64,000 nucleotides of DNA, from the NCBI RefSeq assembly GCF_019599465.1, contig NZ_RKLR01000003.1, forward strand, positions 186,001-250,000. Direction: 5' to 3'. This document shows, piece after piece, positions 7,793 to 44,205 of the stretch. The position numbers were made by a program, and so were the translations under genes. The notes below the pieces were generated by a model. The model was not told where the DNA came from. It searched no databases and saw nothing but the letters and a program-made list of their open reading frames with translations. Position 1 is the first letter of the stretch; every line of letters starts with the position of its first letter. The stretch comes from Haloarcula rubra. Its GTDB lineage: Archaea; Halobacteriota; Halobacteria; Halobacteriales; Haloarculaceae.

Positions 7793-8752
7793 ATGACCGA
7801 CCTGATTACGTTCGGAGAAACCATGCTCCGGTTGTCGCCGCCGGACGAGGAACGCCTCGAGACAGCGGACCAGTACCGGGTCCGGGCTGCCGGTGCCGAG
7901 TCGAACGTCGCCGTCGCCGCGCAGCGACTCGGACTCGACGCCGTCTGGACCTCGAAACTCCCCGAGTCCTCGGTCGGCCGGCGCGTCGTCGGCGAACTCC
8001 GGAACCACGGCGTAACCGTCGACGTAGTGTGGGACGACAGTGAGGCGGCCAGACAGGGCACCTACTACCTCGAACAGGGCCAGCCACCGCGCGGGAACGA
8101 GGTCATCTACGACCGAGCGGGAGCGAGCGTGACCACGGCGACGACGGCCGAACTACCCGTCGAAACCGTCAAGGACGCGACCGGGTTGCACACGACCGGT
8201 ATCACGCCAGCCCTCTCCGAGACGCTGGAGGCGACGACGGCCGACCTGCTCGCTCGGGCGCAGGACGCCGACACCGTGACGAGTTTCGACCTCAACTACC
8301 GGTCGAAGCTCTGGGACCCGGACGAGGCGAGAGCGGTGCTGACGGACCTGTTCCCCGACGTGGACGTCCTCGTCGCCGCCCGGCGGGACGCCGAGACGGT
8401 GCTCGGTCGGACTGGCGACGCCGAGTCGGTGGCTCGGGGACTGGCCGACGACTACGGGTTCGACGTGACGATAGTGACACGCGGGGCCGACGGTGCGCTC
8501 GCGCTCTCGAACGGCGAGGTGTACGAACAGCCGACCTACGAGGCGCCCAGCGCCCACCCGGTCGGGACCGGCGATTCCTTCGTCGGCGGCTTCCTCTCGC
8601 AGTACCTCGCCGGCGAGTCCGTCCCCGACGGGCTCGCGTGGGGTGCGGCTACCGCCGCCCTCAAGCGTTCTGTCCCCGGTGACATCGCCGTCGTCTCCCC
8701 GGACGAGGTCCGTGAAGTCATCGCCGGCGACACGGAAGCGATTTCGCGCTGA
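7793..8752 (+). CDS. kdgK: 2-keto-3-deoxygluconate kinase (PfkB family)
   Basis: A 319-aa ribokinase-fold sugar kinase. It opens with [14 protein letters not shown], has the substrate-lid region [16 protein letters not shown] and ends with the PfkB signature [10 protein letters not shown] near residue 258, which carries the catalytic Asp and anion hole. KDG kinase phosphorylates 2-keto-3-deoxygluconate to KDPG in the haloarchaeal semi-phosphorylative Entner-Doudoroff pathway. The assignment is by family resemblance and by context: pyruvate kinase follows, and gluconate-type dehydratase and glucose dehydrogenase are in the same window. The gene has its own leaderless promoter. A related sugar kinase specificity cannot be excluded. 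Confidence 0.8.
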
Positions 8753-8793
8753 AGTCGCGTGAGGGCGGCGATACTGGCGGCGTCCGGCAAGCT

Positions 8794-8799
8794 TCTTAT
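8794..8799 (+). promoter_or_regulatory. TATA-like element upstream of pykA
   Basis: CTTATC at 8794-8799 places transcription initiation near 8823. This coincides with an ATG that opens an 18-codon reading frame, not with the pykA start at 8872. The pykA message therefore probably has a 49-nt leader. Confidence 0.5.
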
Positions 8800-8822
8800 C
8801 CCTTGACTCGGTACGGTCGAGT

Positions 8823-8879
8823 ATGATTCATCGAACGGTGCGTTCACGAGAGTTGTCGGGAGTATCGACCGATGCGTAG
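8823..8879 (+). CDS. Possible 18-aa leader peptide upstream of pykA
   Basis: An ATG at the predicted transcription start opens a frame encoding MIHRTVRSRELSGVSTDA. It stops (TAG at 8877-8879) just inside the pykA coding sequence, overlapping the pykA ATG at 8872. The position fits a leaderless uORF whose termination could couple to pykA initiation, with a GGGAG purine run 11 nt before the pykA ATG. The peptide is too short to judge by composition, so it may be a chance frame in a 5' leader. Confidence 0.3.
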   Translation: MIHRTVRSRELSGVSTDA

Positions 8880-10635
8880 CGCGAAAATCGTCTGTACGCT
8901 CGGCCCGGCCAGCGAGTCGGTCGACCAGATTGCGTCGCTAGCGGAGGCGGGGATGTCCGTCGCCCGACTCAACGCCAGTCACGGGTCGCCGGAACACCGG
9001 CGCACGATGATAGAGCGCATCCGGGAGGTCGACGACATCGTCGACTCCCCGGTGGCCTCGATGCTCGACATGCCCGGCCCGGAGGTCCGGACGGCGCCCG
9101 TCCGCGAGCCTATCGACCTCGTCGAGGGGTCGACCATCCGTTTCGTGGTGGGCGACGAAGCGACTCCCGAAGAAGTCGGGCTCTCCCAGTCTATCACTAG
9201 CGTCGAGCCGGGGGACCGCGTCCTGCTGGACGACGGCCGCATCGAGACCACGGTGGACCGCGTCGAGGGCGACGTGGTGTACGCCAACGTCGAGAACGGC
9301 GGCGAACTCGGCGCTCGCAAGGGCGTCAACGTCCCCGGCGTCGAACTCGGCCTGCCGACCATCACCGAGAACGACGAGCAGGAACTCGACGTCGCCGCGG
9401 AGATGGAACCGGACTTCGTGGCCGCCTCCTTCGTCCGCGACGGCGAGGCCATCTACGAGATAAATCAGGCGCTCGAAGACCGCGGCGTCGACATCCCCAT
9501 CATCGCGAAAATCGAGCGGGCCGGGGCCGTCGAGAACCTCGACTCCATCATCGACGCCGCCTACGGTATCATGGTCGCTCGCGGTGACCTCGGCGTCGAG
9601 TGTCCGCTCGAAGACGTGCCCATCGTCCAGAAGCGCATCATCCGGAAGTGCCACCAGGCGGGCGTCCCGGTCATCACCGCGACGGAGATGCTCGACTCGA
9701 TGGTCCACTCCCGCCGGCCGACGCGAGCGGAGGCGTCGGACGTGGCCAACGCCGTCCTGGACGGTACCGACGCCGTGATGCTGTCGGGCGAGACGGCCAT
9801 CGGCGACCACCCGACTCGCGTCGTCGAGACGATGGACCGCATCGTCCGGGACGTCGAGTCCAGCGAGGAGTACGCCGAGTCCCGGGAACAGCGCGTCCCG
9901 ACGGCCGGCAACACGCGGACCGACGCGCTCGCCCGGTCTGCCCGGTTCCTCGCTCGGGACATCGGGGCGTCGGCCGTCGTCGCCGCTTCGGAGTCCGGGT
10001 ACACCGCACTGAAGGCCGCGAAGTTCCGGCCGTCGATTCCCATCGTGGCGTCGACACCAAGTGAGGACGTCCGTCGACGTCTCGCGCTCTCGTGGGGCAT
10101 CACGCCGGTCACGACGCAGTACACCACCGACGGCGCCGACGCCATCATCCAGAACGCGGTCCAGTCGGCCCTCGACACCGAGGCGGCCGAGGGCGGTGAC
10201 ACCGTCGTCGTCCTCTCCGGGATGATGACGGAACTCGAAGGGATGAACACGGCCAACATGCTGAAGGTCCACGTCGCCGCCGAGACGATAGCCAACGGCC
10301 GCTCCGTCGTCGACGGACTGGTCACCGGACAGGTGTACCACGTCGACGACGGCGACATCGCCGACGTGCCCGACGGGGCCATCGTCGCCGTCTCGGAGGA
10401 CTTCGACGGCGAGTTCACCGGCGACACCACACGCCTCGGGGGCATCGTCGATGCCCACGAAGGTATCACGAGTTACGCCGCCATCGTCGCCCGCGAACTC
10501 TCCATCCCCATGGTCTCGGACGCCAAACTGCCTGCGCACGTGGAGAACGGGACAGTAGTGACGTTAGACGCCGAACGCGGCGTCGTCTACGAGGAGGCCG
10601 TCGGACGCGAGCGACTGGACGACGACGCACGGTAA
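8872..10635 (+). CDS. pykA: Pyruvate kinase with C-terminal PEP-utiliser-like domain
   Basis: A 587-aa pyruvate kinase (PEP + ADP to pyruvate + ATP). The barrel opens with KIVCTLGPAS; MLDMPGPEVRT and the active-site loop MVARGDLGVE follow, and HSRRPTRAEASDVANAVLDG marks the end of the barrel. After the alpha/beta C-domain a linker leads to an extra domain (about 480-575, EGITSYAAIVARE) like the PEP-utiliser mobile domain of Bacillus enzymes. The position of the phosphoryl-carrier His in that motif (usually TSHAA) is Tyr, so this domain should be structural or regulatory. It is the last step of the local sugar pathway, directly downstream of KDG kinase. Confidence 0.92.
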   Translation: MRSAKIVCTLGPASESVDQIASLAEAGMSVARLNASHGSPEHRRTMIERIREVDDIVDSPVASMLDMPGPEVRTAPVREPIDLVEGSTIRFVVGDEATPEEVGLSQSITSVEPGDRVLLDDGRIETTVDRVEGDVVYANVENGGELGARKGVNVPGVELGLPTITENDEQELDVAAEMEPDFVAASFVRDGEAIYEINQALEDRGVDIPIIAKIERAGAVENLDSIIDAAYGIMVARGDLGVECPLEDVPIVQKRIIRKCHQAGVPVITATEMLDSMVHSRRPTRAEASDVANAVLDGTDAVMLSGETAIGDHPTRVVETMDRIVRDVESSEEYAESREQRVPTAGNTRTDALARSARFLARDIGASAVVAASESGYTALKAAKFRPSIPIVASTPSEDVRRRLALSWGITPVTTQYTTDGADAIIQNAVQSALDTEAAEGGDTVVVLSGMMTELEGMNTANMLKVHVAAETIANGRSVVDGLVTGQVYHVDDGDIADVPDGAIVAVSEDFDGEFTGDTTRLGGIVDAHEGITSYAAIVARELSIPMVSDAKLPAHVENGTVVTLDAERGVVYEEAVGRERLDDDAR

Positions 10636-11767: not shown

Positions 11768-12943
11768 CTACTGTCGTAAGTCGTAGAGCCGACGGAACAC
11801 CGTCGGGGGGAACCGCGGGTCGACCCTGCTGGGTGGTCGTCCCTGCCCGCTCTGTGCCTCGGACTGGACGCGTTCGACGACGCCGGCCTCGGCCATCTCG
11901 TAGAGGAACCGTTTGACGGTCCCCGCCGAGAGGTCGACGGCGGTCGACCCGCTGATGGCTTCCGTCGTCGCCGTGACGGACGACCGGTCCTTGGGTCCAA
12001 GGTCGACCAGTTCCCTGAGGACCGCCTGCCGGTTGGGTGGCAAGGAGAGGACGATCCCCAGCGAGACGCAGGGGTCGGGCATCTCCTCGAACGCCGACTC
12101 GATGTCGGCTGGCGTCAACTGGGCCCGCCCGGCCTCGCTCGCCCGGTCGGTCGCGATGAACAGCGCCGCCAGTGCGTCGTGGGAGTCGCCGTTGGCCCAC
12201 TCGGCGATGTCGCGGGCGAGGCCGTGGTCCAGCGCTTGCTGGGCGAGACCGACCGACGCCCGAGTCATCAGGACGTCGACCAGCATCTGTCGCTGGTAGT
12301 GGTCGACGTGGATGGACTCAGCGGTGTACTCCGTGAGTACCGTCTCCGTCGGGTTCAGCCGGCCGATTGCCAGCCAGCTGACGTTGCTCGGCAGGCCGGC
12401 GAAGAGGTCGACGAGGTCGCTCTCGCTGGTGCTTCGAGGTTCGCCGACGTGGTCGACGGTGACGACGACGCCGGTTCGCGTGCCGCCGAGCACCTCGTGG
12501 AGACGCGAGCGGAGCGTCTCCGTCCCGATGCCGTGTTCCGGAACCGACTCCTCGACGAGCGCGTCCAGCACCGCGTGGTAGAACGCGAACTCGCTCGTGG
12601 TCTGGCGCGCGTCGACGTAGACGAACGCCGGCGAGGTCGGTGACTGGGCACGCGTGCTGGTGTGAATGACCGCTCGGTTCTCGGTCGGGAGTTGTTCGAG
12701 CTGTGTGAAGAGTGCCGTCACGACCGCCGACTTCCCCGACCCTTTCGGTCCGTAGACGTACGCGTTCGGCGGCAGTTTGCCGTCGAAGACGGGGTCGAGA
12801 TGGTCGAGCAGGCGCTCGAGAACCGGGCCCCGGTCCGCCGGTTCCTCGATGTGTGTGACCGGCGAGAGCGACTCGTAGTCTTGGATCAGCCGCGGCTCGC
12901 CGTCACGGCGCTGCCGACGTTTGATTCGCGCTTCGATATCCAT
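11768..12943 (-). CDS. Cdc6/Orc1-family AAA+ protein with degenerate Walker B
   Basis: 391 residues. The N-terminal block RLIQDYESLSPVTHIEEP and Walker A GPKGSGKS (residues 65-72) are those of archaeal Orc1/Cdc6 proteins, and a winged-helix domain follows (about 290-391). The Walker B stretch reads VVVTVDHVGE, so the catalytic Glu after the Asp is His; ATP may be bound but poorly hydrolysed. No clustered origin-recognition repeats are visible in the short flanking gaps, so this is probably not an origin initiator. Haloarchaea carry several such paralogues, some of unknown role. It is convergent with the ROK kinase gene. Confidence 0.75.
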   Translation of the reverse strand: MDIEARIKRRQRRDGEPRLIQDYESLSPVTHIEEPADRGPVLERLLDHLDPVFDGKLPPNAYVYGPKGSGKSAVVTALFTQLEQLPTENRAVIHTSTRAQSPTSPAFVYVDARQTTSEFAFYHAVLDALVEESVPEHGIGTETLRSRLHEVLGGTRTGVVVTVDHVGEPRSTSESDLVDLFAGLPSNVSWLAIGRLNPTETVLTEYTAESIHVDHYQRQMLVDVLMTRASVGLAQQALDHGLARDIAEWANGDSHDALAALFIATDRASEAGRAQLTPADIESAFEEMPDPCVSLGIVLSLPPNRQAVLRELVDLGPKDRSSVTATTEAISGSTAVDLSAGTVKRFLYEMAEAGVVERVQSEAQSGQGRPPSRVDPRFPPTVFRRLYDLRQ

Positions 12944-13003: not shown

Positions 13004-14080
13004 TTACGGCAGCGGGATCCAGACGGACGTCGGGAAGACGCCGACCAGAGCGAGGACGGCGATGATGAACGTCGAGACGACGATGGCCGCGGCCGGCGGG
13101 TCGAAGTGGGTGTCCGAGTGGGCGTAGAAGATACGCTGGATGGTCTCACCGGCGAGAGCGCCGATGAGTCCGAACACCCCGGCGGTGATTATCTGGATCG
13201 GTTCGCCGCCGAGCGGTGCGACCGCGAGCGCCGCCGTGCTGGCGGGCAGGGTCATGTGGTGCGTGACCGGAATCTTCTCGACGCCGAGGTTCAGGAACGT
13301 CAGCGACGCCGCGGAGATACCGAACCCGAGGAACGCGCTCCCGGTGACGATGGCTATCCAGCCGCCGAGCAGACCGGCGACGATGCCGATCATAGCGACG
13401 TTGCTCCACTTGTACTGGTGGGGGAGCCACGGTTCGACGGCCAGCCGAGTGGCACCGGCCGTACCGCCGTCGGTGGCGACGCGTTCTTCACCCTTCTCGA
13501 AGGGGGACATGTCGAGGACGCTGCGGTCGCCGGCACCCACGATGGGGTAGCCGAAGGCGAGTCGGTGAGCGACGGCCGAGAGGACCACAGCGATGGCGAT
13601 GGGGTCCCACGGCGCGCCGATGCCGGCCGAGACGCGAGTGATGACCAGACCGAGGATACCGAAGAGACCACCGACGGCGAGGATGTCCGGGCGGGTGCCC
13701 AGCGCGTACGCGATGTCCTTCGCCGGGTGGTAGTCACCGTCCGCCGGTTCCGGCATGCCGTCGTTCTTCGCGGCGTAGGCGGCCGCTGCCGCGCCGGCCG
13801 CGAACGAGACGTGCGGCCCGAACACCGGACCGAAGGCGATAGAGCCGGTCACACCGACCCCGATTTCGCCGCCGGCGATGTCGAGCACCGAGCCGAGTTC
13901 GGCGACGAGGATGTTGACGGCCTCGCCGGCGATGACCATGAACCCGGTGAAACAGAACGCCGGGAGCGCGCCGAGAGCGGCCCCGAACGCGCCGCCCGCG
14001 AAGGCGGCCAGCAGGAGCGCGATGAAGCGCGGCACCTCGACGCCGAACAGCGGAATCTGGAGGAGCAGGTCTGCCACCAT
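13004..14080 (-). CDS. GlpX-like integral membrane protein of the glycerol operon
   Basis: 358 residues with about eight to nine hydrophobic, Gly/Ala-rich spans, including LLLAAFAGGAFGAALGALPA and VGGLFGILGLVITRVSAGI. It begins 3 bp after glpK, so the two form an operon. A membrane protein in this position is known from the Haloferax glycerol operon (called glpX there) and is suspected to move glycerol across the membrane; it is unrelated to the bacterial fructose-bisphosphatase GlpX. Transport is inferred from context only. The short soluble loop near residues 185-215 (EKGEERVATDGG) has no recognised motif. Confidence 0.75.
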   Translation of the reverse strand: MVADLLLQIPLFGVEVPRFIALLLAAFAGGAFGAALGALPAFCFTGFMVIAGEAVNILVAELGSVLDIAGGEIGVGVTGSIAFGPVFGPHVSFAAGAAAAAYAAKNDGMPEPADGDYHPAKDIAYALGTRPDILAVGGLFGILGLVITRVSAGIGAPWDPIAIAVVLSAVAHRLAFGYPIVGAGDRSVLDMSPFEKGEERVATDGGTAGATRLAVEPWLPHQYKWSNVAMIGIVAGLLGGWIAIVTGSAFLGFGISAASLTFLNLGVEKIPVTHHMTLPASTAALAVAPLGGEPIQIITAGVFGLIGALAGETIQRIFYAHSDTHFDPPAAAIVVSTFIIAVLALVGVFPTSVWIPLP

Positions 14081-14083
14081 ACG

Positions 14084-15616
14084 TTATTCCTCCTGTGCCC
14101 AGTCCAGTGACTTCTCGACGGCGTCGTCCCAGCGACTGTACAGTTTGTCGACTTCCTCGGCGTCCTTCTCGGGGCTGAACTCGCGGTCGATCTGCCAGTT
14201 GTCGCGGAGTTCGTCTACGGTGTCCCAGTAGCCGACGGCCAGACCCGCGGCGTACGCGGACCCGAGCGCGGTCGTCTCGTCGACTTCCGGACGGGCGATG
14301 TCCGTCTGGATGATGTCGGACTGCAGTTGACAGAGGAAGTTGTTCTTGACCGCACCGCCGTCGACGCGCAGCGACGTCGTCTCGACGCCGGAGTCGGCCT
14401 CCATGGCCTCGGCAACGTCGCGCGTCTGGTACGCGATAGATTCGAGGGTGGCACGCACGATGTGTTCCTTCCGGGTCCCACGCGTCATGCCGACGATGGT
14501 CCCTCGGGCACGGCCGTCCCAGTGGGGGGCACCGAGGCCCGTGAAGGCCGGCACCATGTAGACGCCGTCGGTCGAGTCGACCGAGCGGGCCAGTTCCGCC
14601 GTCTGGGCGGCGTTGTTGATGAGGTCGACGTCTTCGAGCCACTCGATCGCGGCACCGGTGATGAAGATAGCGCCCTCCAGTGCGTACTGGACGGGTTCGC
14701 CGGACATCTGGAAGCCGATGGTCGTCAGGAGCCCGTGGTCGGACTTGACGGCCTCGGTCCCGGTGTTCATCAGGTAGAACGACCCGGTGCCGTACGTGTT
14801 CTTCGCGTCACCCTCGTCGAAACAGGTCTGACCGAACAGCGCGGCCTGCTGGTCACCCAGTGCGCCGGCGACGGGAATCTCCTCGCCGAGGAAGCCGTCG
14901 GCGTCGGTCGTCCCGTAGAAGTCCTCGTCGGAGGACGGGCGGACCTCCGGCACCATCGACTCGGGCACGCCGAACTCGTCTAGGAGTTCGTCGTCCCACT
15001 CTAGGTCCCGGATGTTGTACAGCATCGTCCGCGACGCGTTGGTGACGTCCGTGATGTGGTTCCCGGTGAGATTGTAGATGAGCCACGTGTCGATGGTCCC
15101 CATCATGAGCTCGCCGGCCTCGGCGCGGTCTTGCAGGTCCTCCCCACGGGAACTCTGCATCTTGAGCGGTTCGGCGTTCTCGAGGATCCACTCGGTCTTC
15201 GTCGCGGAGAAGTACGCGTCACACTCGAGCCCCGTCTTCTCTCGAATCTCTTCGACCTTGCCGGCTTCCTGAATCTCCTCGACGCGGTCGGTCGTCCGAC
15301 GGTCCTGCCAGACGAGCGCGTTGTGGACCGGCTTGCCGGTCTTCTTGTCCCACACGACCGTCGTCTCGCGCTGGTTCGTGATGCCCAGCGCCTCTATCTG
15401 ACTGGCGTCGAGGTCGGCCTCGTCGAGGCCGCGCGTGACGACTTCCTGCGTGTTCTCCCAGATTTCGAGCGGGTCGTGTTCGACCCAGCCGGGTTCCGGG
15501 TAGATCTGTTCGTGCTTCTCGTACGCGTTGGCGACGACCTGTCCGCTGTGGTCGAATACCATGAACCGCGTACCGGTCGTACCTTGGTCGATCGAGCCGA
15601 CGTATGTGTCTGCCAT
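14084..15616 (-). CDS. glpK: Glycerol kinase
   Basis: A 510-aa FGGY-family kinase that phosphorylates glycerol to sn-glycerol 3-phosphate with ATP. It has GSIDQGTTGTRFMVFD at the N-terminus, ITNQRETTVVWDKKTGKP, NASRTMLYNI, GDQQAALFGQTCF and GGAVKNNFL; the length matches GlpK exactly. It is the entry step for glycerol, a major haloarchaeal carbon source. It is read leftward with the glpX-like gene. Upstream on the same strand lies the transducer/UgpB fusion gene, and glpABC is divergent from that. The promoter contains TTTATAATG bracketed by inverted repeats. Confidence 0.96.
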   Translation of the reverse strand: MADTYVGSIDQGTTGTRFMVFDHSGQVVANAYEKHEQIYPEPGWVEHDPLEIWENTQEVVTRGLDEADLDASQIEALGITNQRETTVVWDKKTGKPVHNALVWQDRRTTDRVEEIQEAGKVEEIREKTGLECDAYFSATKTEWILENAEPLKMQSSRGEDLQDRAEAGELMMGTIDTWLIYNLTGNHITDVTNASRTMLYNIRDLEWDDELLDEFGVPESMVPEVRPSSDEDFYGTTDADGFLGEEIPVAGALGDQQAALFGQTCFDEGDAKNTYGTGSFYLMNTGTEAVKSDHGLLTTIGFQMSGEPVQYALEGAIFITGAAIEWLEDVDLINNAAQTAELARSVDSTDGVYMVPAFTGLGAPHWDGRARGTIVGMTRGTRKEHIVRATLESIAYQTRDVAEAMEADSGVETTSLRVDGGAVKNNFLCQLQSDIIQTDIARPEVDETTALGSAYAAGLAVGYWDTVDELRDNWQIDREFSPEKDAEEVDKLYSRWDDAVEKSLDWAQEE

Positions 15617-15747: not shown

Positions 15748-18267
15748 TCAGTTTCTAGCGTACGTTCGGAGTCGTTTCTCCACCTGTTCGTTGACGCGTG
15801 CCAACTCCTCGTCAACTTGCTCGACGTTCGTAATGTGTTCGATACCCTCCTCTATCACCGTTCGTACGGTGTCGAACGGCCCGATCTGGGCTCCCCGGGT
15901 CGCCGTCGTGTCGGTCGTGGCGACCAACTGGTCGAACGCGGTGGCGTAGTGCGGGTTCCGTTCGAACCACCCGTCCGACCGTAGCTTCGGAATCGCCGCC
16001 TCGTGGACCGGGAAGTACCCCGTCTCGCGGTGCCACCGCATCTGCTGGTCCTGTTCGGTGAGCCACGTGAGGAACTGCCCGACCGCGTCCCGCGTCGCAC
16101 GGGGTAACCCGTCACTGACCCACAGCGACGCGCCACCGACGAGGACGCCGGTCCGTTCGTCTTCGACCGGGAGCATCCCCGTGCCGACGTCGAAGTCGGC
16201 ACCGGATTCGATGGCTTGCAACGACGACGAGGACCCGACGAGCATCGCCGCGTCGCCCGCGTGGAACGCGGTTCGCGCCTCCCCACGAGCCTCGATACCG
16301 GGGTTCAGATAGAGGCCGTCGGCCTCCATGGCGACCCACCACTCGACGAGCGACCGGGCGAACTCGTCGTCGAGATGCGCCGACTGGGGGACCCCAGCAC
16401 GGCCGTTCTCCGCGTCGACTAGCAGTTCGTCGGCCTCGGCGAACCACTGCTCGACGAACCACGAGTAGTTCGCGAACGTGATGCCGTAGTCCGCACCGCT
16501 CCGTGAGACGAGTCGCTCGGCGGCGCTCCGGACCGCGTCGAACGTCCGCGGCGGTGATTCGGGGTCTAGCCCCGCCGCACGGAACGCGTCACGGTTGTAC
16601 GCGAGGACGGGGTTCGAGGCGTTGAATGGGAGCGACTGCAACTGCCCGTCCATGCGGTAGTAGTTCGACACCGGGTCTATGAGCGAGTCGACGTGGTCGG
16701 CGGGGAGCAACCGTTCGACCGGCACGAAGTGGCCACTCTCGCGTGCGCGCGTACTGCCTATCTCGAACACCTGCGCGACGGTGGGGCCGTCCCCGGTGGC
16801 CGCTGCCTCGAGCGTCGCGTCGAGCGTCCCGCGATAGCTCCCCTTCGAGGTCAGCGAGACGCTGATGCCCTCGGTCTGGGACTCGAACTCGTCGGCGAGG
16901 GATTCGAGCAACAACGCCTTCTCTCCGCCCATCGCGTGCCAGAACTCCACTACCGTCTCGTCGGCGCTCGCCGACGTCCCCGCCCCGGCGAGCTCGAACC
17001 GATCGAGCGTGGCCTCCAGCGAATCGGCCCGTTCGGTGAGCGTCGACACACGGGTCGAGACTTCCGCCAGTTCCGTCGTCTGTTCCTGTGCGGCGTCGGC
17101 CGCGGTGTCGGCCTCCGCCGTGGTCCGGTCGCTTATCTCGCCCACTTCGTCGACCATCGAGACGACCTCCTGCGTGGACTGGGCCTGCGAGTCGGTCGCG
17201 TCGTCGATCTCCTGTACGCTCGCGTCCACCTCGTCCACACGCTCGACCACGGCGTCGAGTTCGTCGAGGGCCCGCTCGACGGCCTCGTGCGTGCTCTCGA
17301 CGGTGGTCCGGGTGTGGTGCATCTCCTCGGCCGTCGCGTCGGCGTGGTCGTGCACCCTGTCGATGGAGGACGCTATCTCGTCGGTCGCCCGCTTCGTCTC
17401 GCTGGCGAGGTTCTTCACCTCGTCGGCGACGACGGTGAACCCGTCCCCCTCCGACCCGGCGCGTGCGGCCTCGATGTTGGCGTTGAGGGCCAGAATGTTG
17501 GTCTGGTCCGCCACGTCGGTGACGAACTCGACTATGTCCTCGATGTCGGTCATGCGGTCGTTCAGCCGTTCGACCTTCTGGGCCGTCTCCTCGGCGTGCC
17601 TCGTCAGTTGGTCGAGTTCCGCCATCGCGTCGCCGGCGGCCGCCTGTGCCGTCGACCCCCGACTGCTCGCCGCCTCCGAGGTGTCTGCTACCTCGTTGGC
17701 GGACGCGGCGATTTCCTCGATAGTGGCCGAGAGGCTCCGCATCTCGTCCGAGATGTCCTGAATGCGGTCACGCTGGGTCCGTGACCCCGCCGATATCTCG
17801 TCGACGGCCTCGCTGACGTCCCTGCTGGAGCCTTTCACGCTATCGATTCGGTCGTCGACGCGTTCGGTCGCCGACGACACCTGTTCACTGAACGAGGCCA
17901 TGCGGTCGACGGTCTCGCGCCACTCCGAGACGAGGTCGTCGTACGCGTCGTAGAGGTCCGCCGCACGCTCGGTCGGCGGTTCCCCGGGCGTCGCGGTCAG
18001 GTCGCCCTCCGCGTTGGCCGCCGCGACGTCGGCCAGTCGGTCGACGGCCGACTCGAGGTCGCTCCGTCTGGCGCGCTCGGCGGCGAGTTCGTCTTCGAGA
18101 CGTGCTATCTCTGCGGCTGCGCCGTCCTCCTCGTCAGGTGTGTCGGGCGTCGCCGTCGGTTTGCTCGTGTCCGTCTTCGCGCCCTGTGTGTCTGTGTCGG
18201 GAGTACGGTCCGCCGCTCCGCCGTCGGTCTCGACGGCGTCGTCTCCGAACGGGTTCCAGCCAGTCAT
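15748..18267 (-). CDS. Soluble chemoreceptor fused to a UgpB-like glycerol-3-phosphate-binding domain
   Basis: An 839-aa protein with no signal peptide and no membrane span. Residues 1-50 are a Pro/Thr/Asp-rich tail, 50-80 coiled coil, about 80-120 a HAMP-like segment, and 120-425 a full chemoreceptor signalling domain with the intact tip (QTNILALNANIEAARAG, 255-271). Residues 437-837 are a complete family-1 solute-binding protein closest to UgpB: EFWHAMGGE, FEIGS (501-505), LPFNASNPVLAYNRDAF, GGASLWV (711-717), ETGYFPV (748-754) and Arg802, matching conserved UgpB blocks by eye. It lies between glpK and glpABC. I infer a cytoplasmic taxis receptor for glycerol 3-phosphate; the ligand is unproven. 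Confidence 0.85.
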   Translation of the reverse strand: MTGWNPFGDDAVETDGGAADRTPDTDTQGAKTDTSKPTATPDTPDEEDGAAAEIARLEDELAAERARRSDLESAVDRLADVAAANAEGDLTATPGEPPTERAADLYDAYDDLVSEWRETVDRMASFSEQVSSATERVDDRIDSVKGSSRDVSEAVDEISAGSRTQRDRIQDISDEMRSLSATIEEIAASANEVADTSEAASSRGSTAQAAAGDAMAELDQLTRHAEETAQKVERLNDRMTDIEDIVEFVTDVADQTNILALNANIEAARAGSEGDGFTVVADEVKNLASETKRATDEIASSIDRVHDHADATAEEMHHTRTTVESTHEAVERALDELDAVVERVDEVDASVQEIDDATDSQAQSTQEVVSMVDEVGEISDRTTAEADTAADAAQEQTTELAEVSTRVSTLTERADSLEATLDRFELAGAGTSASADETVVEFWHAMGGEKALLLESLADEFESQTEGISVSLTSKGSYRGTLDATLEAAATGDGPTVAQVFEIGSTRARESGHFVPVERLLPADHVDSLIDPVSNYYRMDGQLQSLPFNASNPVLAYNRDAFRAAGLDPESPPRTFDAVRSAAERLVSRSGADYGITFANYSWFVEQWFAEADELLVDAENGRAGVPQSAHLDDEFARSLVEWWVAMEADGLYLNPGIEARGEARTAFHAGDAAMLVGSSSSLQAIESGADFDVGTGMLPVEDERTGVLVGGASLWVSDGLPRATRDAVGQFLTWLTEQDQQMRWHRETGYFPVHEAAIPKLRSDGWFERNPHYATAFDQLVATTDTTATRGAQIGPFDTVRTVIEEGIEHITNVEQVDEELARVNEQVEKRLRTYARN

Positions 18268-18601: not shown

Positions 18602-20332
18602 ATGGCATCGACACCACACATCGCCGTCATCGGCGGCGGTTCGACCGGCGTTGGCATCGCCCGTGACCTCGCGATGCGAGGGCTCGACGTGACACTCGTC
18701 GAGCAGGGGAATCTCACACACGGGACGACCGGCCGGATGCACGGCCTGCTCCACAGCGGCGGGCGATACGCCGTCTCCGACCAGGCCAGCGCCACGGAGT
18801 GTATCGAAGAGAACCGCGTCCTGCGAGACATCGCCAGCCACTGCGTCGAGATGACCGGCGGGATGTTCGTCAAGCGCCCCGAGGACTCCGAGGAGTACTT
18901 TCAGGAGAAGTTACAGGGGTGTAAGGAGTGCGGCATCCCCGCGGACGTCGTCTCCGGTGCGGAAGCCCGCCAGATGGAGCCACACCTCGCGAAAGACGTC
19001 GAGAAGGCCATCACCGTCCCTGACGGCGCAATCGACCCCTTCCGTCTCGTCGTCGCGAACGCCGCCAGCGCCCAGGAACACGGCGCGCGCATCGAGACGC
19101 ACTCGAAGGTGACGGACCTCCTCGTCGAGGACGACGAAGTGGTCGGTCTGGAAGTCGAACACGCCTCCGGGCCGGGCAAGCGAGTCCACGGGACCGAAGG
19201 CGGCACCGAGGAGATTCGCGCGGACTACGTCGTCAACGCGACGGGGGCGTGGGCCGGTCGCATCGGCGACATGGCCGACCTCGACATCGCCGTCAGGCCC
19301 TCGAAGGGCGTCATGACTATCATGAACATCCGACAGGTGGACACGGTCATCAACCGCTGCCGGCCGAAGGGCGACGCCGACATCGTGGTCCCCCACGAGA
19401 CGACGGCCATCCTCGGGACCACGGACGAGGAAGTAGAAGACCCCGAAGACTACCCAGAGGAGCAGTGGGAAGTGGACCTGATGATAGAGACGCTGTCGGA
19501 ACTGATTCCGATGCTCGAAGAGGCGCGGACGATTCGCTCGTTCTGGGGCGTCCGACCGCTGTACGAACCGCCGGACGTCGGCAGCGAGGACCCGACCGAC
19601 ATCACGCGGGATTTCTTCCTGTTGGACCACGACGAGCGTGACGACTTGCCGGGCATGACCAGCATCGTCGGCGGGAAGTTCACCACCTACCGGATGATGG
19701 GCGAGCAGATATCCGACCACGTCTGCGGCAAGTTCGGTATCGACGCCGAGTGTCGAACCGCCGACGAACCGCTGCCCGGCAGCGAGGACTTCTCCGTCCT
19801 CCGGGACTACATGGACGAGTTCGGTCTCCGGTCGCCAATCGGTCGCCGGAGCGTCGAACGCCTCGGCTCCCGGGCCGACGAGGTGCTCAAGACAGAGGGC
19901 CCGAACCCCACTGTCTGTGAGTGTGAGGGCGTCACCCGCGCCGAGATTCAGGACGCTATCAGCCAGTCCGGCTCCGACCTCAACGCCGTCCGCATCCGCA
20001 CTCGCGCTTCGATGGGGAACTGTCAGGGCGGTATCTGCACGCATCGGATGGCCAGCGAACTCCACGGCGAGTACGACGAGGGAATCGTCCGCGAGGCGTG
20101 GGACGAACTCTTACAGGAGCGCTGGAAGGGCCAGCGACACGCCCTCTGGGGCGAACAACTCTCACAGGCGGCGCTGAACTACGCGCTGCACGCGACGACG
20201 CAGAACCGCGACAACGACCCCGCCGGTGGGGACCCGGTCGACTTCGCAGCCTTCGACTCCGGCGTCGACCACACCGACGACTCGGGGACGGCCGACGTCG
20301 CCGCCGACGGAGGGAAACCAGATGGCGATTGA
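18602..20332 (+). CDS. glpA: Anaerobic-type glycerol-3-phosphate dehydrogenase, subunit A
   Basis: A 576-aa FAD-dependent catalytic subunit that oxidises sn-glycerol 3-phosphate to dihydroxyacetone phosphate. It has the dinucleotide motif [18 protein letters not shown] and the [15 protein letters not shown] block. The C-terminal BFD-like [2Fe-2S] domain carries CECEG near residue 438 and GNCQGGIC near 473. GlpABC is peripheral on the membrane and passes electrons to the quinone pool via GlpC. The gene overlaps glpB by 11 nt. The start at 18602 follows a TATA-like TAAAATAA. Confidence 0.95.
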
Positions 20333-21593
20333 GTCCGAAATCCTCGTCGTCGGCGGCGGTCTCGCGGGCCTCTCCAGTGCCCTCGCGGCCGCCCGCGACG
20401 GCGCCGACGTCCGCCTCGTCTCCTACAAGCAGAGCACGCTCCGGCAGGCGTCCGGGTTGGTCGACCTCCTCGGATACACGCCCGACGGGGAGGGCCCACT
20501 GACCGACCCCTACGCCGCGATGCCCGACCTGCCCGCTTCCCACCCGTACCGGACCGTCGGTGTCGAGACGGTCAGAGAGGCGATGGCGATGTTCGACGAG
20601 GTCAGCGGCTACGAAGGGGGCCACACCGACACCAACGCCCTCCTGCCCACCCACGGCGGGACCATCAAACCCACCGCCCGCTACCCACGCGGTGCGGCGG
20701 CAGGACTGGCGAGCGACGACCGGGACACCCTGTTTGTCGGCATCGAGTCGATGACGGACTTCGACGCGCCCCACGTGGCCGACCACTTAGACGCCGCCGG
20801 CGTCCCGTTCGACGTGCGCGGCGAGACCATCCGGTTCCCGGGCGACCTGCGAGCGGACGCGAAGGTGACACGGTACGCGAAACTCCTCGACACCAACGGC
20901 GAGGTGGCGGTGCGGGGCCGAAAGGTGCCGGCACGCGAGGCGCTCGCCCAGCGAGTGAACCCACTCGTCGAGGACGCGGAGCGCGTCGGCTTCCCCGCGA
21001 TTCTGGGCGACGACAACCCCGGTGCCATCCGCGACGCCCTCGGCGACCAGATGGGCGTCGACGTGTTCGAGGTCCCGATGGGCCCGCCATCCCTGCCGGG
21101 CCTCCGACTCGAAGACAAGTTGTTCGAGGCGTTGGACGAGAGCGGTGCGAGTTTCGAGACCGGCAACCCCATCGTCGACTTCGACGGCGAGGGCCACGTA
21201 GAGCGCGTCTTCATGGAGAAGAACGGCGCACGCATCCCGCTCTCGGCCGACCAGTACGTCCTCGCGACTGGTGGCCTCGTCGGGAAAGGCGTCGAGTCCG
21301 ACCGCGACGGGGTCAGCGAACCCGTCTTCGACTGTCACGTCCCCCACAGCGACGACCGGTACGACTGGTTCGACACCGACGTCTTCGGCGACCACCCGTT
21401 CGCCGGGTTCGGCGTCGAGACGGACGACGACCTGCGACCGCTGTCTGCGGATGGCGACGTGGAGTTCGACAACCTGCGGGCCGCGGGCAGTGTGCTCGGC
21501 GGCTACGACTTCGCGGCGGAGAAATCGGGTAGCGGCGTCTCGATTGCGACAGGCTACGCGGCGGGCACGAGCGCCGCAGCGGAGGTACGATGA
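20322..21593 (+). CDS. glpB: Anaerobic-type glycerol-3-phosphate dehydrogenase, subunit B
   Basis: A 423-aa flavoprotein subunit. The N-terminal motif [21 protein letters not shown] binds the flavin. The rest matches GlpB ([17 protein letters not shown] in the middle, a final [23 protein letters not shown]). The ATG at 20322 overlaps the glpA stop, so translation is coupled; a longer in-frame start upstream would lie inside glpA and is rejected. It ends in a 4-bp overlap with glpC. It is part of the three-subunit GlpABC complex with FAD/FMN chemistry at the inner face of the membrane. Confidence 0.93.
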
Positions 21594-22957
21594 GCGACGC
21601 ACAACCTACAGACTTCGACCCAGTTGAACCGAACACGGGCGAGGGCTTCGAACCGGTCGAAGTGTTCCCCGAGAGCGACGACTTCGACCTGCGACCGGGC
21701 GCGGACTCCTGCTACAAGTGCTCGGTCTGTGATACGAACTGTCCGGTGGCGGAAGTCGACGACGACTTCCCCGGACCGAAGTTCCAGGGGCCCGAGCAGT
21801 GGCGCCTGAAACAGACCGACGACGACTACGAGATAGACGACTCGGTCATGTCGTGTTCGAACTGCATGCGCTGTGACTCGGCGTGTCCCTCGGGCGTGCC
21901 GCTGAGTCAGATGCACAACACCGCCCGCGGGGAGTACGTCGAGGAGCAGATGGACAAACTGTCCGTCGAGTACGTCCGCAACCGCATCCTCTCGAACTAC
22001 CGCCTGTCGGCGAGTATCGCCAGCAAGGTACCACGACTCGCGAACTTCGCCATGAACTTCGGACCCGCCCGGTGGGTGATGGAGAAGACGATGGGCGTCA
22101 CGAGCGAGCGTGACTTCCCCGAGTTCGCCCAGCAGACGTTCCGCGAGTGGTGGGCCGCCCGCGGCGGTGCCGACGCCTCCAGAGCGAACGCCGTCGAGAG
22201 CCGCGAACGCCGCGGCGAACCCGCCGACGCCGACAAGAAAGTCGCCTACTTCCACGGCTGTTACTCCAACTACAACACGCCGGACGTCGGCAAGGCGATG
22301 GTCCACGTCTTCGAACACTTCGGCTACGAAGTCGTCGCGCCCGAACAGAAGTGCTCGGGGACGCCGATGTTCGCAAACGGGATGCTCGACGACGCTCGCC
22401 GGCACGCCGAGGTCAACGTCTCGTCGATGTCGGACCTCGTCGACCAGGGATACGACGCCATCGCGTCCTGTACCTCCTGTTCGATGGCGCTCCGACAGGA
22501 GTACCCCGAACTGTTCGACATCGACGGCATCGAGAAAGTGGCTTCGAACACGTTCGAGGCCATCGAGTACCTCCGCATCCACGAGGACGTGAAAGGCGAG
22601 ATAGAGTCCGCCGAAGTGTCGGGCGAACTGGCACAGGAGTTCGCCTACCACGCGCCGTGTCACGCCCGGAATCAGGGGCTCGAACGGCAGGCCGTCGAAC
22701 TGTTTCGGGACCTCGACGGCGTCGGCGTCGAGGACGTCGGTGACTCCTGTTCGGGCATCTCGGGCACCTACGGCTGGAAGGAGGAGAAGTACGAGAAGTC
22801 CATGGAGATAGGTGACGAGATGTTCGAGCACATGGAACACGCCGAGGGCGAGACGGGCATGACCGAGTGCCCCACCTGTGCGATGCAGATGGAACACGGC
22901 ACCGGCTACGAGATTCGCCACCCCCTCGAACTCGTCGAGGCCGCAGTGGTGGAGTGA
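21590..22957 (+). CDS. glpC: Anaerobic-type glycerol-3-phosphate dehydrogenase, iron-sulfur subunit C
   Basis: A 455-aa subunit that anchors GlpAB and transfers electrons to quinone. Two ferredoxin-type 4Fe-4S motifs are visible: CYKCSVCDTNCP (Cys 41, 44, 47, 51) and CSNCMRCDSACP (Cys 89, 92, 95, 99). Two CCG-type domains with HGCYSNYN and HAPCHARNQG follow. Its ATG overlaps the glpB stop (ATGA), completing a tightly coupled glpABC operon of the halobacterial type. Confidence 0.94.
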   Translation: MSDAQPTDFDPVEPNTGEGFEPVEVFPESDDFDLRPGADSCYKCSVCDTNCPVAEVDDDFPGPKFQGPEQWRLKQTDDDYEIDDSVMSCSNCMRCDSACPSGVPLSQMHNTARGEYVEEQMDKLSVEYVRNRILSNYRLSASIASKVPRLANFAMNFGPARWVMEKTMGVTSERDFPEFAQQTFREWWAARGGADASRANAVESRERRGEPADADKKVAYFHGCYSNYNTPDVGKAMVHVFEHFGYEVVAPEQKCSGTPMFANGMLDDARRHAEVNVSSMSDLVDQGYDAIASCTSCSMALRQEYPELFDIDGIEKVASNTFEAIEYLRIHEDVKGEIESAEVSGELAQEFAYHAPCHARNQGLERQAVELFRDLDGVGVEDVGDSCSGISGTYGWKEEKYEKSMEIGDEMFEHMEHAEGETGMTECPTCAMQMEHGTGYEIRHPLELVEAAVVE

Positions 22958-39900: not shown

Positions 39901-40073
39901 GCCCGATAATCCATTTGTACCGACAAGTAACTTCCGTCACATTATGAAACGTGATAATCCGTCGTAACGACAGTAGCCCTAGCGGTGGTCCTGTCCTCCG
40001 CTCCACGGGCCTCGAAAAGTCGGTCCGGGACGGCGCTTCACCGGAACGGTGGACGGGTGCTGTCGTCCTCTCC

Positions 40074-40106
40074 CTCGCCGAACGGCGCTGAACGTTCCTC
40101 GGCGAG
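40074..40106. terminator. Inverted repeat after the dehydratase gene
   Basis: CTCGCCGA (40074-40081) and TCGGCGAG (40099-40106) form a perfect 8-bp stem with a 17-nt loop, ending about 15 nt beyond the leftward dehydratase stop. No T-run is present, so it may be a 3' processing or termination structure, or chance. Confidence 0.25.
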
Positions 40107-40120
40107 TCCGGCGCGTCGCC

Positions 40121-41371
40121 TCACTCCTCGTCGAACAGCGTGTCGCCCTCGACCATGTGTTCCTCGACGGCGTCCATGTCGAGGGTGAGGCCGAGACCCG
40201 GTTCTTCCGGAATCTCGATGTAGCCGTCCTCGATGACGTCCTCCTCGACGAGGTCCTCCCACCAGCCGAGTTCGTAGGAGTGGTACTCGACGGCCAGCGA
40301 GTTCGGCACGGCGGCCCCGACGTGGGCGCTCGCCATCGTCGCGATGGGCGAGGAGACGTTGTGCATCGCCACCGGGATGTAGTACTGGTTGGCGACGTCT
40401 GCGACCTTCCGTGTCTCGCGCATGCCACCGACCTTCGGCATGTCGGGCGCTATCATGTCGACCGCCTGATTCTCGATGAGGCGGCGCTCCTCGGTCACGC
40501 GGTAGCGGTTCTCGCCCACCGTGATGGGCGTCGTCGTGGACTTCGTGACCTCCTCCTGCACTTCGAGGTTCTCCGGCGGGACGGGGTCCTCGAGCCACCA
40601 GACGTCGTACTCCTCGATGGCGTCGGCGAGGCGCTTGCCGGAGCCACCGGAGAACGTCCAGTGGCAGTCGAACGCCACGTCGGCGCGGTCCTTCACGCGC
40701 TCGGTGACCTTCTCGACGATTTCGGCCTTGTGTCGAATCTCGCCCGGACGGAGGTGCCGGTTCGCGCGGTCCTTCTCCAGTCCGCTCGGCACGTCGAGGT
40801 CGAACTTCAGGGCGTCGTAGCCCAGTTCCTCGACGACGCGCTCTGCCTCGTCGGCGCAGGCTTCGGCGTCGGCCTCCTCCTCCGTGTGGCAGTCACAGTA
40901 GACGCGCATCTCGTCGCGGTACTTGCCGCCGAGGAGCTGGTAGGCCGGGACCTCCAGAATCTTACCCGCGAGGTCGTGGAGTGCGACCTCGATGCCTGCG
41001 ATAGCGGTGACGGTGACGCCTTCGACGGAGCCCTCGCCGGACATCTTCTGGATGAGGTGCTCGTAGAGGCGGTCGATGTCCAGCGGGTTCTCGCCCACCA
41101 CGAACGGCTTCATTCGCTCGATGAGTTCCGGCACACCGGCCCCCCAGTAGGCCTCACCGGTCCCCACGATACCGGCGTCGGTGTAGATGCGGACGAGCGT
41201 CCACGGGAAGTTCCCGTCGACCATCGTCGTCTGGACGTCGGTAATCTCGACGTCGCGGCCACCACCGCGCTTCGCCGTGACGCCCATCGTCTCGGACGAG
41301 AGCTCTCGCATCGTGTACTCAGCGTTGGGGTCGTGCAGGTCAGCGTAGTCTACGTCGTTCGCCAATCCCAT
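40121..41371 (-). CDS. gad: Enolase-superfamily sugar-acid dehydratase, probable D-gluconate dehydratase
   Basis: A 416-aa mandelate-racemase/muconate-lactonising-type enzyme. The capping domain starts near residue 40 (VEITDVQTTMVDGNFPW). The barrel carries AFDCHWTF, WWLEDPVPPEN and TPITVGEN, the three acidic metal ligands at the ends of successive strands, and VAMHNVSSP with a likely catalytic His. Haloarchaeal relatives dehydrate D-gluconate (or D-xylonate) to the 2-keto-3-deoxy acid. With glucose dehydrogenase and KDG kinase in this window, gluconate is the best guess. The TATA-like TTTTGTAA (41394-41401) fixes the ATG at 41371. The glucose-type binding-protein gene is just upstream on the same strand. 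Confidence 0.75.
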   Translation of the reverse strand: MGLANDVDYADLHDPNAEYTMRELSSETMGVTAKRGGGRDVEITDVQTTMVDGNFPWTLVRIYTDAGIVGTGEAYWGAGVPELIERMKPFVVGENPLDIDRLYEHLIQKMSGEGSVEGVTVTAIAGIEVALHDLAGKILEVPAYQLLGGKYRDEMRVYCDCHTEEEADAEACADEAERVVEELGYDALKFDLDVPSGLEKDRANRHLRPGEIRHKAEIVEKVTERVKDRADVAFDCHWTFSGGSGKRLADAIEEYDVWWLEDPVPPENLEVQEEVTKSTTTPITVGENRYRVTEERRLIENQAVDMIAPDMPKVGGMRETRKVADVANQYYIPVAMHNVSSPIATMASAHVGAAVPNSLAVEYHSYELGWWEDLVEEDVIEDGYIEIPEEPGLGLTLDMDAVEEHMVEGDTLFDEE

Positions 41372-41421
41372 GGAGGTGGCTTGCTAGCCCCGTTACAAAA
41401 GTGTAGAGGAATCGACTCGGC

Positions 41422-42618
41422 CTACGCCGACCGGTCCAGCGCGGCGACGACGTCGTCGGCCACGGCCTCGGAGTCCCACGAGGAGACGAACGTCGACATG
41501 GCTGTCTTCAGTTCGATGAGTTGGTCCGGTCGGACACCCAGCCCGTGGGTTATCGACAGCGGTTGGCTCGCCGACTGCTGGAACGCGCTCTGTTGTTCCT
41601 GCAGGAACGGCGTGAACGCGGACGTGTCGACGTCGGTCCGGGGCGGGATGGACCCCTTCTTCTGGTTGAACCGCCGCTGACCGTCCGCAGAGCCGACGTA
41701 CGAGAGGAACGTCGAGACGGCCTCCGAGTCGTCGGTCACGCTCGCGGCGATGACCGCGTCCATGTTCATCGCGTAGAGCCCGTCGGTACCGGGGAACGGC
41801 ACGTGGTCCCAGTCGGTCCCGTAGTCGAACTCCGGGGACTCGGTGTAGGCGCCTGCCGCCCAGTCGCCCTGATGGAAGAAGACGGACTCGCCGTCGACGA
41901 ACCGCTCGTTGGCGTCGGTCAGCGACGTGTAGAGTCTGTCCTCCGTGGCCACCTCGGCGTACTGCCCGACGATGTCGAGCGCGTCGACGATGGCCCGGCG
42001 GTGGGCCGCCGCGGCGTCGTCCGTGACGCGCCTGTACGTGTCGTGGCCGTGTTCGCCCAGTAGCACCGTCTCCCACATCTGGAGGACCGTCCACGGGTTC
42101 TTCATCGGGAACAGCATCCCCGTCTGGTCGGTCTCGGCGTCGATACGCTGGAGTTCCTCGGCGAACGCCCGCGGACTGTCGATAGCGGCGGGGTCGACGC
42201 CCAGCGCCTCCGCCTGCTCGACGTCGTAGAAGAGGTTGTTGATGCGGTGGATGTTGAGCGGTACAGCGCGATAGACCCCGTCGAACTTCGCGGCGTTCCG
42301 TGGCCCGTCGAGATAGTACCGCTCCATGTCGGTGTCCTCCCAGACGGACGTGACGTCGCCGAGTACGGCGGCGTCGTCGTACGGTTGGAGGTTCTTCCCC
42401 GGCCACTCTATCCAGACGTCCGGCGGACTCTCCTTGAGGATGCGGCTCTTGACCTCGAGGCTCAGGTTCTCGTCGGCGACGTCCCGCATCGAAACCTCCG
42501 GGTGTCGCTGGCCGAAGCCGTCGAGCAACGCGTCTAACGCCGCGCCGCCGTCGCCACCGACCAACCGGTGTAGCAACTCCCCACTCTCGCCCCCACCCAC
42601 AGAGGTAGACCGTGACAT
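41422..42618 (-). CDS. Family-1 sugar-binding protein without signal peptide (cytoplasmic)
   Basis: 398 residues. The binding-protein fold begins within the first 15 residues (GELLHRLVGGDGGAALDALL), so there is no Sec, Tat or lipobox sequence. Conserved blocks resemble glucose/sugar-binding proteins of the Thermus GlcE type: VPLNIHRINNLFY (119-131), NPWTVLQMWET (174-184), GDWAAGAY (251-258) and KKGSIPPR (320-327). The N-terminal aromatic pair of those proteins is missing. No permease or ATPase gene adjoins it; a chemoreceptor gene is divergent 102 bp away. A leftward TATA (TTTCATAACG) 26 bp upstream confirms the start. I infer a cytoplasmic ligand-presenting protein. Confidence 0.8.
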   Translation of the reverse strand: MSRSTSVGGGESGELLHRLVGGDGGAALDALLDGFGQRHPEVSMRDVADENLSLEVKSRILKESPPDVWIEWPGKNLQPYDDAAVLGDVTSVWEDTDMERYYLDGPRNAAKFDGVYRAVPLNIHRINNLFYDVEQAEALGVDPAAIDSPRAFAEELQRIDAETDQTGMLFPMKNPWTVLQMWETVLLGEHGHDTYRRVTDDAAAAHRRAIVDALDIVGQYAEVATEDRLYTSLTDANERFVDGESVFFHQGDWAAGAYTESPEFDYGTDWDHVPFPGTDGLYAMNMDAVIAASVTDDSEAVSTFLSYVGSADGQRRFNQKKGSIPPRTDVDTSAFTPFLQEQQSAFQQSASQPLSITHGLGVRPDQLIELKTAMSTFVSSWDSEAVADDVVAALDRSA

Positions 42619-42720
42619 GTCGTGCAGTCGCTATCGAGTCGTTATGAAATTTCCCCGCCCGTTCTCAGTCGTGATTTTCCGGGCATGACGATTTATATCC
42701 CCCCTCTCAAATGGGCCCGT
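42619..42720. promoter_or_regulatory. Compact divergent promoter of the binding protein and chemoreceptor
   Basis: A 102-bp gap with two TATA elements: leftward TTTCATAACG (about 42638-42647) 26 bp from the ATG at 42618, and rightward TTTATATCC (about 42692-42700) 26 bp from the ATG at 42721. Both transcripts are predicted to be leaderless, and the two genes share the same short control region. Confidence 0.6.
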
Positions 42721-44205
42721 ATGGTTGACTGGCAACAACGAGGCGTGGGACTGGCCGTGGTGGGACAGTTCGGCCACGCGATATTTCAGGGGCTCGTGTT
42801 CGGGTTCGCGCCCGGGGGACTGGTACCGGTTCTCTCGGTCGTGGGGTTCGTCGTCGCTGCTACGGCGGCGGTCTACTCTGTTCGGCGCGTACGCGCCCGA
42901 CACGACCGTCTCGCGACCGAGCGGGACGCACTGGAACGCGACCGCGACCGTCTCGAAGACGAACTGGGGCGGACACGGCTGACGCGGGACGAACTCGTCG
43001 CCGACCTCGCCGCGGCGCGGGCCGAACTCCGCGACCGGGGGCCGAACTCGGTAGACACACAGCAGGCGACTCTGGCCGACGGTGGCGTCACCGAGACGAG
43101 CGGCGTGACCGTCGACGACCTGAACGGGTATCTGGACGCCTGCTGTCGGACGCTCGACGTCGCCAGCGAGGGAGACCTGCGGCAACGGATGGACGCCGAG
43201 ACGCCCTCGGCCTCGCTCAACCAACTCGCGACGGAGTTCAACGAGATGGCCGACGCCTTCGAACAGACCATCGACACGGCGAGCGAGTTCTCCGACGACG
43301 TCGCCGAATCCTCCGAGCAAGTCTCGGCCGCGACGGACGCGGTCAAAGAGGCCGCCGAGAGCGTCGCCGGGACGGTGCAGGAGATCGCGGACGTGTTCCA
43401 CGAACAGCACCAGCAGATATCGACCATCAGCGAGGAGATGTCCGATATGTCCGCGACTATCGAGGAGATAGCCGCGTCCTCGAACGAGGTCACCGAGATG
43501 GCAAAGAAGACGGAGAAACGGACCGTCGACGGCATCGAGGCGGGCCGCGAGGCCCACGAGACGATGGCGACGACGGTGGACCAGACCGACGACGTCGTCG
43601 AGACGGTCCAGACGCTCGACGACCAGATGGAGGAGGTCGGGGAGATCGTCGACCTCATCGACGACATCGCCGAGCAGACGAACATCCTCGCGCTGAACGC
43701 CTCTATCGAGGCGGCACACGCATCGTCGGGGGCAGAGAACAACGGCTTCGGCGTCGTGGCCGACGAGGTCAAGTCACTCGCCGAGGAGACGAAAGACGCG
43801 ACGAACCAGATAGAGAACCGAATCGCGGACATCCAGAACCAGACCGAGGACGCCGTCGAAGAGATAACCGAGATGCAGACCTCCGTCGAGGAGGGACAGG
43901 AAGCCGTCGACGAGGGGCTGGAGGCGCTCGAATCCATCATGGAACACGTCCAGGAGACCAGTTCCGGCGTCAAGGAGATTAGCAACGCCACCGACGACCA
44001 GGCGGCCACCTCCGAGGAAGTCGCCTCCATCGCCGACGACGTAGCGAAGACGTCCCAGCAGAACGTCGAAGAGGCCGAACACGTCGCCGCTATCGCCGAG
44101 GAACAGACCCTCGCGCTCGGCGAGATGTACGTCAACGTCCGCATGCTCACCATGCGCGCGCAGCAACTCAGCACGCTGTTCGACCGCTACGAGACCGCGG
44201 ACTGA
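42721..44205 (+). CDS. Membrane-anchored chemoreceptor without a sensory domain
   Basis: 494 residues. Two hydrophobic spans (about 8-29 and 34-53) are joined by only a few residues, so there is no extracellular ligand domain. A charged coiled coil (55-110), a HAMP-like segment (about 150-205) and a full signalling domain follow, with the intact tip IAEQTNILALNASIEAAHAS (about 313-332) and NNGFGVVADEVKSLAEET. The ATG at 42721 is set by TTTATATCC 26 bp upstream; an upstream in-frame start at 42622 is rejected. Its divergent neighbour is a signal-less sugar-binding protein, the likely ligand-sensing partner on the cytoplasmic side. Confidence 0.88.
   Translation: MVDWQQRGVGLAVVGQFGHAIFQGLVFGFAPGGLVPVLSVVGFVVAATAAVYSVRRVRARHDRLATERDALERDRDRLEDELGRTRLTRDELVADLAAARAELRDRGPNSVDTQQATLADGGVTETSGVTVDDLNGYLDACCRTLDVASEGDLRQRMDAETPSASLNQLATEFNEMADAFEQTIDTASEFSDDVAESSEQVSAATDAVKEAAESVAGTVQEIADVFHEQHQQISTISEEMSDMSATIEEIAASSNEVTEMAKKTEKRTVDGIEAGREAHETMATTVDQTDDVVETVQTLDDQMEEVGEIVDLIDDIAEQTNILALNASIEAAHASSGAENNGFGVVADEVKSLAEETKDATNQIENRIADIQNQTEDAVEEITEMQTSVEEGQEAVDEGLEALESIMEHVQETSSGVKEISNATDDQAATSEEVASIADDVAKTSQQNVEEAEHVAAIAEEQTLALGEMYVNVRMLTMRAQQLSTLFDRYETAD

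Follow-up and report, generated by a model that had tools for sequence, protein, structure and literature searches.

The locus analysed here, in Haloarcula rubra, raises the question of why a chemoreceptor gene lying among glycerol-catabolism genes should carry a domain resembling the binding protein of a glycerol 3-phosphate (G3P) importer, and what such a domain would sense. Within the window (the whole stretch of 64,000 nucleotides that was analysed), an MCP-UgpB fusion receptor of 839 aa is encoded at 15748..18267 on the minus strand; the coordinates agree with those of a preliminary description of this DNA, from which the strand was absent. The single open frame, with Pfam and NCBIfam matches, runs from an ATG at 18267 to 15748 and comprises 839 codons without an internal stop. 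MCPsignal (residues 214-378, E 2.7e-41) and SBP_bac_8 (residues 457-776, E 6.8e-39) were both found in this frame, as expected from the earlier proposal that a chemoreceptor and a solute-binding domain are fused. In the AlphaFold2 model of the full-length protein (mean pLDDT 78), about 45 disordered residues precede a predicted, coiled-coil-like N-terminal helix (residues 46-86; 18010..18132, minus strand). A GDLT motif after this helix resembles HAMP domains as judged by eye; no Pfam HAMP match was obtained for the receptor. The long helical MCP signalling bundle follows (residues 103-421; 17005..17961, minus strand; AlphaFold2 secondary structure), and a flexible linker (residues 422-436; 16960..17004, minus strand; pLDDT <50 at residues 426-434) leads to the UgpB-like type II solute-binding domain (residues 437-837; 15757..16959, minus strand), recognised by sequence alignment, structure comparison and an alignment of 34 fusions.

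The CheA/CheW-contacting tip QTNILALNANIEAARAG (residues 255-271; 17455..17505, minus strand) begins at residue 255, as previously claimed, and is invariant or nearly so across the 34 aligned fusions, with most positions invariant. With an MCPsignal domain and this conserved tip, the protein belongs to the MCP family. Both ends of an MCP hairpin sit opposite the tip, and a C-terminal Venus-flytrap domain can therefore push on the bundle there. Chemotaxis and archaellum genes are present in the window's genome, which contains CheW-family domains in three genes (one of them inside a 798-aa frame) and four archaellin-family matches. CheW-family domains were detected in 36/36 genomes with the fusion versus 71/110 other genomes of the family (p 2e-6, uncorrected for the relatedness of the genomes). 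The window also encodes a second MCP-type protein (42622-44205, plus strand; 527 aa) without a recognised input domain, near genes for a 543-aa protein without a Pfam match (40049-41680), an alpha-amylase and a xylose-isomerase-like protein.

The highest Kyte-Doolittle mean of the receptor in 19-residue windows was only 0.79, which argues against a membrane span, and no Tat, Sec or lipobox motif was found at the N-terminus (MTGWNPFGDDAVETDGG). The absence of a signal peptide and of a membrane span noted in the preliminary description was thus confirmed, and the cytoplasmic location proposed there is predicted for what appears to be one soluble polypeptide without export or membrane signals. 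A hidden signal peptide or span was rejected for most relatives as well. Fusions of the Halohasta/Halonotius group (L089, L095 and L096, more weakly L093 and L097) have an N-terminal hydrophobic stretch, which may form a short hairpin in the membrane and so anchor a receptor that is otherwise cytosolic. In these proteins no span separates the MCP domain from the binding domain that follows it, and the latter should therefore stay cytosolic.

UgpB is the sn-glycerol-3-phosphate-binding protein of a CUT1 ABC importer; it is exported and feeds the transporter. The best NCBIfam model for the C-terminal half of the receptor, above all other models, was UgpB (residues 432-818), and since its 225.8 bits fall short of the equivalog cutoff of 411, the domain is described as UgpB-like, not as UgpB proper. 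The best PDB sequence matches were the UgpB proteins of Phaeobacter (9lff, E 1e-57) and E. coli (4aq4, E 9e-57). Modelled alone with AlphaFold2 (pLDDT 92.1, pTM 0.89), the domain was structurally closest to UgpB 6x84 (rank 1; Z 52.0, rmsd 1.7, 400 aligned). Z scores were 46.5 for UgpB 4aq4 (rmsd 3.4, 400 aligned) and 45.9 for 9lff (rmsd 3.2, 397 aligned), and 41.0 for the closest non-UgpB family. The kinship with UgpB asserted earlier for residues 437-837 holds at the levels of sequence, profile and structure, and the model indicates a complete solute-binding domain with a type II fold closest to that of UgpB.

In UgpB structures with glycerol 1-phosphate (G1P) and G3P, the ligand hydroxyls are contacted by Gly303, Arg393 and Glu88, the phosphate by Tyr64, Ser143, Ser266 and Tyr342, and Trp188 and Trp191 form a clamp (PMC12718374). 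The receptor equivalents in an alignment to UgpB are Y478 (Y64), E502 (E88), S551 (S143), W603 (W191), S679 (S266), G712 (G303), Y751 (Y342), R802 (R393) and N600 (Trp188). All seven hydrogen-bonding residues (Y, E, S, S, G, Y and R) are kept, and eight of the nine contacts are invariant across the 34 aligned fusions, position 600 being the exception. Arg802, singled out in the preliminary description for its place near the end of the domain, is aligned with a true ligand contact, and the comparison with UgpB complexes suggested there gave 8/9 contacts conserved; a loss of ligand residues was accordingly rejected, with Trp188->Asn as the sole exception. The two-tryptophan clamp is incomplete, with Trp191 kept and Trp188 replaced by Asn600, and the pocket may therefore be wider or its affinity lower. 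Position 600 is Asn or Thr in fusions, and because the tabulated free haloarchaeal proteins also have Asn, the substitution probably predates the fusion. Asn was observed at this position in the exported haloarchaeal UgpB-like proteins L080, L081, L098 and L102, where it may alter selectivity among glycerol phosphates.

All inspected free haloarchaeal UgpB-like proteins have Tat-lipobox-like (twin-arginine) leaders. The free relative in the window's own genome (L081) is encoded beside ABC permease, ATPase and glycerophosphodiester phosphodiesterase genes, and ATPase and phosphodiesterase genes also adjoin L098. These ABC-transporter and phosphodiesterase neighbours tie the UgpB-like family to glycerol phosphates.

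Fusion-length frames were found in 36 of the 146 genomes searched in the window's family, with binding domains 53-85% identical to that of the window protein (own genome excluded), and an order-wide search added fusions in further Halobacteriales families. Dozens of genomes across Halobacteriales contain collinear fusions, including those of Haloarcula (H. argentinensis, H. rara), Halorubrum (H. yunnanense, H. xinjiangense), Haloferax (H. larsenii, H. mucosum), Halohasta (H. salina), Halonotius (H. pteroides) and Halobiforma (H. nitratireducens). Among the bacterial relatives listed, no fusion was found outside Halobacteriales, and those relatives are free proteins. Phylogenetic analysis of 79 binding domains placed the 45 fusions in one clade against 34 free proteins (SH-aLRT 100), and the clade was recovered with bootstrap/SH-aLRT values of 100/100 in a tree of 75 rows from which four long-branch rows were omitted. 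The simplest reading of this single clade would be that the fusion arose once in haloarchaea. Both domains are under purifying selection (dN/dS 0.11-0.31, window gene versus five relatives). The fusion receptor is real and conserved, and it is probably functional.

The surroundings of about 60 loci were extracted and their frames re-read. A 2395-aa frame at L116 was rejected as a product of scaffold gaps. The candidate L078 (G135, 8439-9671) has a binding domain of 38% identity but did not align as an MCP fusion; it is a divergent UgpB-like protein with E88->S and R393->Q, and these substitutions suggest that its ligand probably differs. At L079 (G010, 8007-9547), a decayed fusion copy lies at the glp site, with the MCP core missing and the frame broken.

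In the window, the receptor gene is the first of a leftward set that continues with glpK, encoding glycerol kinase (14084..15616, minus strand; TIGR01311), 131 bases downstream on the same strand, and, directly after it, a gene for a 358-aa hydrophobic, predicted membrane protein (13004..14080, minus strand; no Pfam match). Locus comparison also identified a 391-aa AAA ATPase-like protein (11768..12943, minus strand). On the other side, glpA, encoding a subunit of anaerobic glycerol-3-phosphate dehydrogenase (18602..20332, plus strand; TIGR03377), is divergent from the receptor gene across an intergenic region of 334 bases and is followed by glpB (20322..21593, plus strand; NF003722; start placed at 20322 on the basis of its profile match) and glpC (21590..22957, plus strand; NF008369 and TIGR03379). 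All of these glp genes, named as neighbours in the preliminary description, match their NCBIfam models above cutoff. The 358-aa protein is encoded next to glpK at most of the glp-linked loci, across several families, and is a candidate glycerol facilitator or uptake protein. The gene for the ATPase-like protein accompanies glpK and the receptor gene across several families, and also at L063, L089, L093 and L095-L097.

The receptor gene lies between glpK and glpA in 22/22 close orthologues (the window and L042-L062), and linkage to glp genes recurs at L063, L089, L093, L095, L096, L097, L116, L121 and L130, the linkage label requiring 4 changes on the fusion tree. This tight and repeated linkage to glpK and glpA points to G3P. 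Fusions away from glp genes were found in a second Haloarcula group, Halorubrum, Natrialbaceae and some Haloferax. In the Haloarcula genomes with the unlinked type, as in several genomes without any fusion, glpK and glpA face each other with no receptor between them. Presence of glpK (33/36 genomes with the fusion versus 87/110 others of the family, p 0.07) does not discriminate, as the gene is nearly universal in the family. The preliminary description had proposed searching for further fusions and for their co-occurrence with glp genes: fusions were found, and every locus in the window's own clade is linked, but many other loci are unlinked and presence or absence of glpK is uninformative.

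We consider it somewhat better than an even chance that the protein is a cytosolic receptor for the G3P pool, giving metabolism-dependent glycerol taxis. Its input module would be a Venus-flytrap domain of the UgpB type that was relocated from the cell exterior to the cytosol. Glycerol would enter and be phosphorylated by GlpK to G3P, and G3P, possibly together with other glycerol phosphates, would close the two lobes of the C-terminal domain, which is predicted to hang by its short linker from the last helix of the MCP bundle. Lobe closure would then alter the bundle and, via CheW and the conserved tip, CheA activity, so that the cell would monitor the compound formed by its own breakdown of glycerol and move toward glycerol. 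Ligand identity, lobe closure as the signal and the sign of the response are what we infer here, and cells would probably steer by the amount of glycerol already being metabolised. Archaeal lipids are built on G1P; haloarchaeal G3P should therefore mainly report glycerol breakdown, which makes it an attractive ligand candidate. The chances are about equal for and against the wider reading, in which the binding protein of an importer was internalised once in haloarchaea and became a chemoreceptor that senses, in the cytosol, the first intermediate of the glycerol-degrading pathway, with taxis on a metabolic pool, not on an external nutrient.

The main caveat is the poor discrimination between G1P and G3P in UgpB pockets. 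Phaeobacter UgpB binds them almost equally (Kd 2.36 uM for G1P and 0.80 uM for G3P), so the pocket supports a glycerol phosphate and not G3P alone. A UgpB-type micromolar Kd might also be saturated by the catabolic G3P pool unless the affinity is lower, and the many fusions away from glp genes count against G3P as well. The main rival, that the receptor reads another cytosolic glycerol phosphate (G1P, or a glycerophosphodiester released by lipid turnover) and so signals the status of the membrane or of phosphate, not glycerol catabolism, draws on this low selectivity and on the unlinked fusions, and we regard it as unlikely but worth keeping in view. Glycerophosphocholine is bound by the UgpB of M. 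tuberculosis, which has a related fold, according to the title of 6r1b; the exported haloarchaeal UgpBs likewise have Asn in place of Trp188, and two inspected loci of such proteins adjoin a glycerophosphodiesterase gene. However, the glpK/glpA linkage favours G3P, and G1P, a lipid precursor made constitutively, would give the cell little to steer by.

In lineages away from glp genes, the ligand could instead be a different one such as a sugar phosphate, and the family a general carbon-status receptor. At L071-L075, all from one genus, the fusion adjoins genes for a glycan phosphorylase, an alpha-amylase and phosphoglucose isomerase and not glp genes; yet the eight UgpB contact residues are identical in glp-linked and unlinked fusions, and we hold this reading to be improbable. 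More doubtful still is a binding domain that has lost ligand sensing and now serves as a protein-docking or structural module. Its model is in an open-like state, nearest to the open mutant UgpB 6x84, which fits such a role, but the full invariance of the eight pocket contacts and the strong purifying selection argue against it. A frameshift or misassembly joining two genes, raised beforehand in the preliminary description as fatal to the fusion, is practically ruled out by collinear fusions in dozens of independent assemblies from several families, all in one clade.

Taxis that depends on metabolism is a long-established phenomenon, but few receptors are, to our knowledge, assigned a defined metabolite inside the cell as ligand, and glycerol is a major carbon source of hypersaline waters. 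If the cytosolic G3P reading is correct, this protein would be a molecularly defined receptor for metabolism-dependent taxis toward that carbon source. A specific ligand can be proposed for it, its pocket is mapped, and one operon ties the receptor to the enzyme, in hosts that use the opposite glycerol-phosphate enantiomer in their lipids. It also opens a separate question to experiment, namely whether tuning can make a UgpB pocket distinguish G3P from G1P within archaeal cells. An importer component would have been reused as an internal sensor, by an apparently single ancient fusion.

Among known systems, UgpB itself (4aq4, 6x84, 9lff, 9lfj) shares with the receptor domain its fold, its length, 8/9 ligand contacts and about 30-34% identity. 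UgpB is, however, an exported transporter partner, whereas the receptor domain has no signal, forms the C-terminal half of a chemoreceptor and has Asn in place of Trp188; ugpAEC-type transporter partners would be expected for UgpB, whereas the receptor's neighbours are glp genes. No paper on the fusion receptor, its ligand or its glp linkage was found in the open-access literature. The earlier statement that no receptor with this architecture had been described was nevertheless too strong: in its accessible part, a 2022 census of archaeal chemoreceptors lists SBP_bac among the input-domain families (about 9% together with PilJ, HBM and 4HB) and includes cytoplasmic receptors with C-terminal input domains (PMC9680633). 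The MCP-SBP kind is therefore already known at the level of domain counts, at which that part of the census names no protein, ligand or gene context. Car of Halobacterium salinarum, a cytoplasmic arginine transducer that is also soluble and without a membrane span (PMC3579733), is an earlier example of a cytosolic haloarchaeal transducer for an internal metabolite; its ligand is arginine, and the likeness is one of class. In BasT/BasB and CosT/CosB of the same species, a substrate-binding protein is also the sensing part of haloarchaeal taxis, but there a separate extracellular binding protein works with a membrane transducer, whereas here the two are fused in one soluble protein predicted to lie inside the cell.
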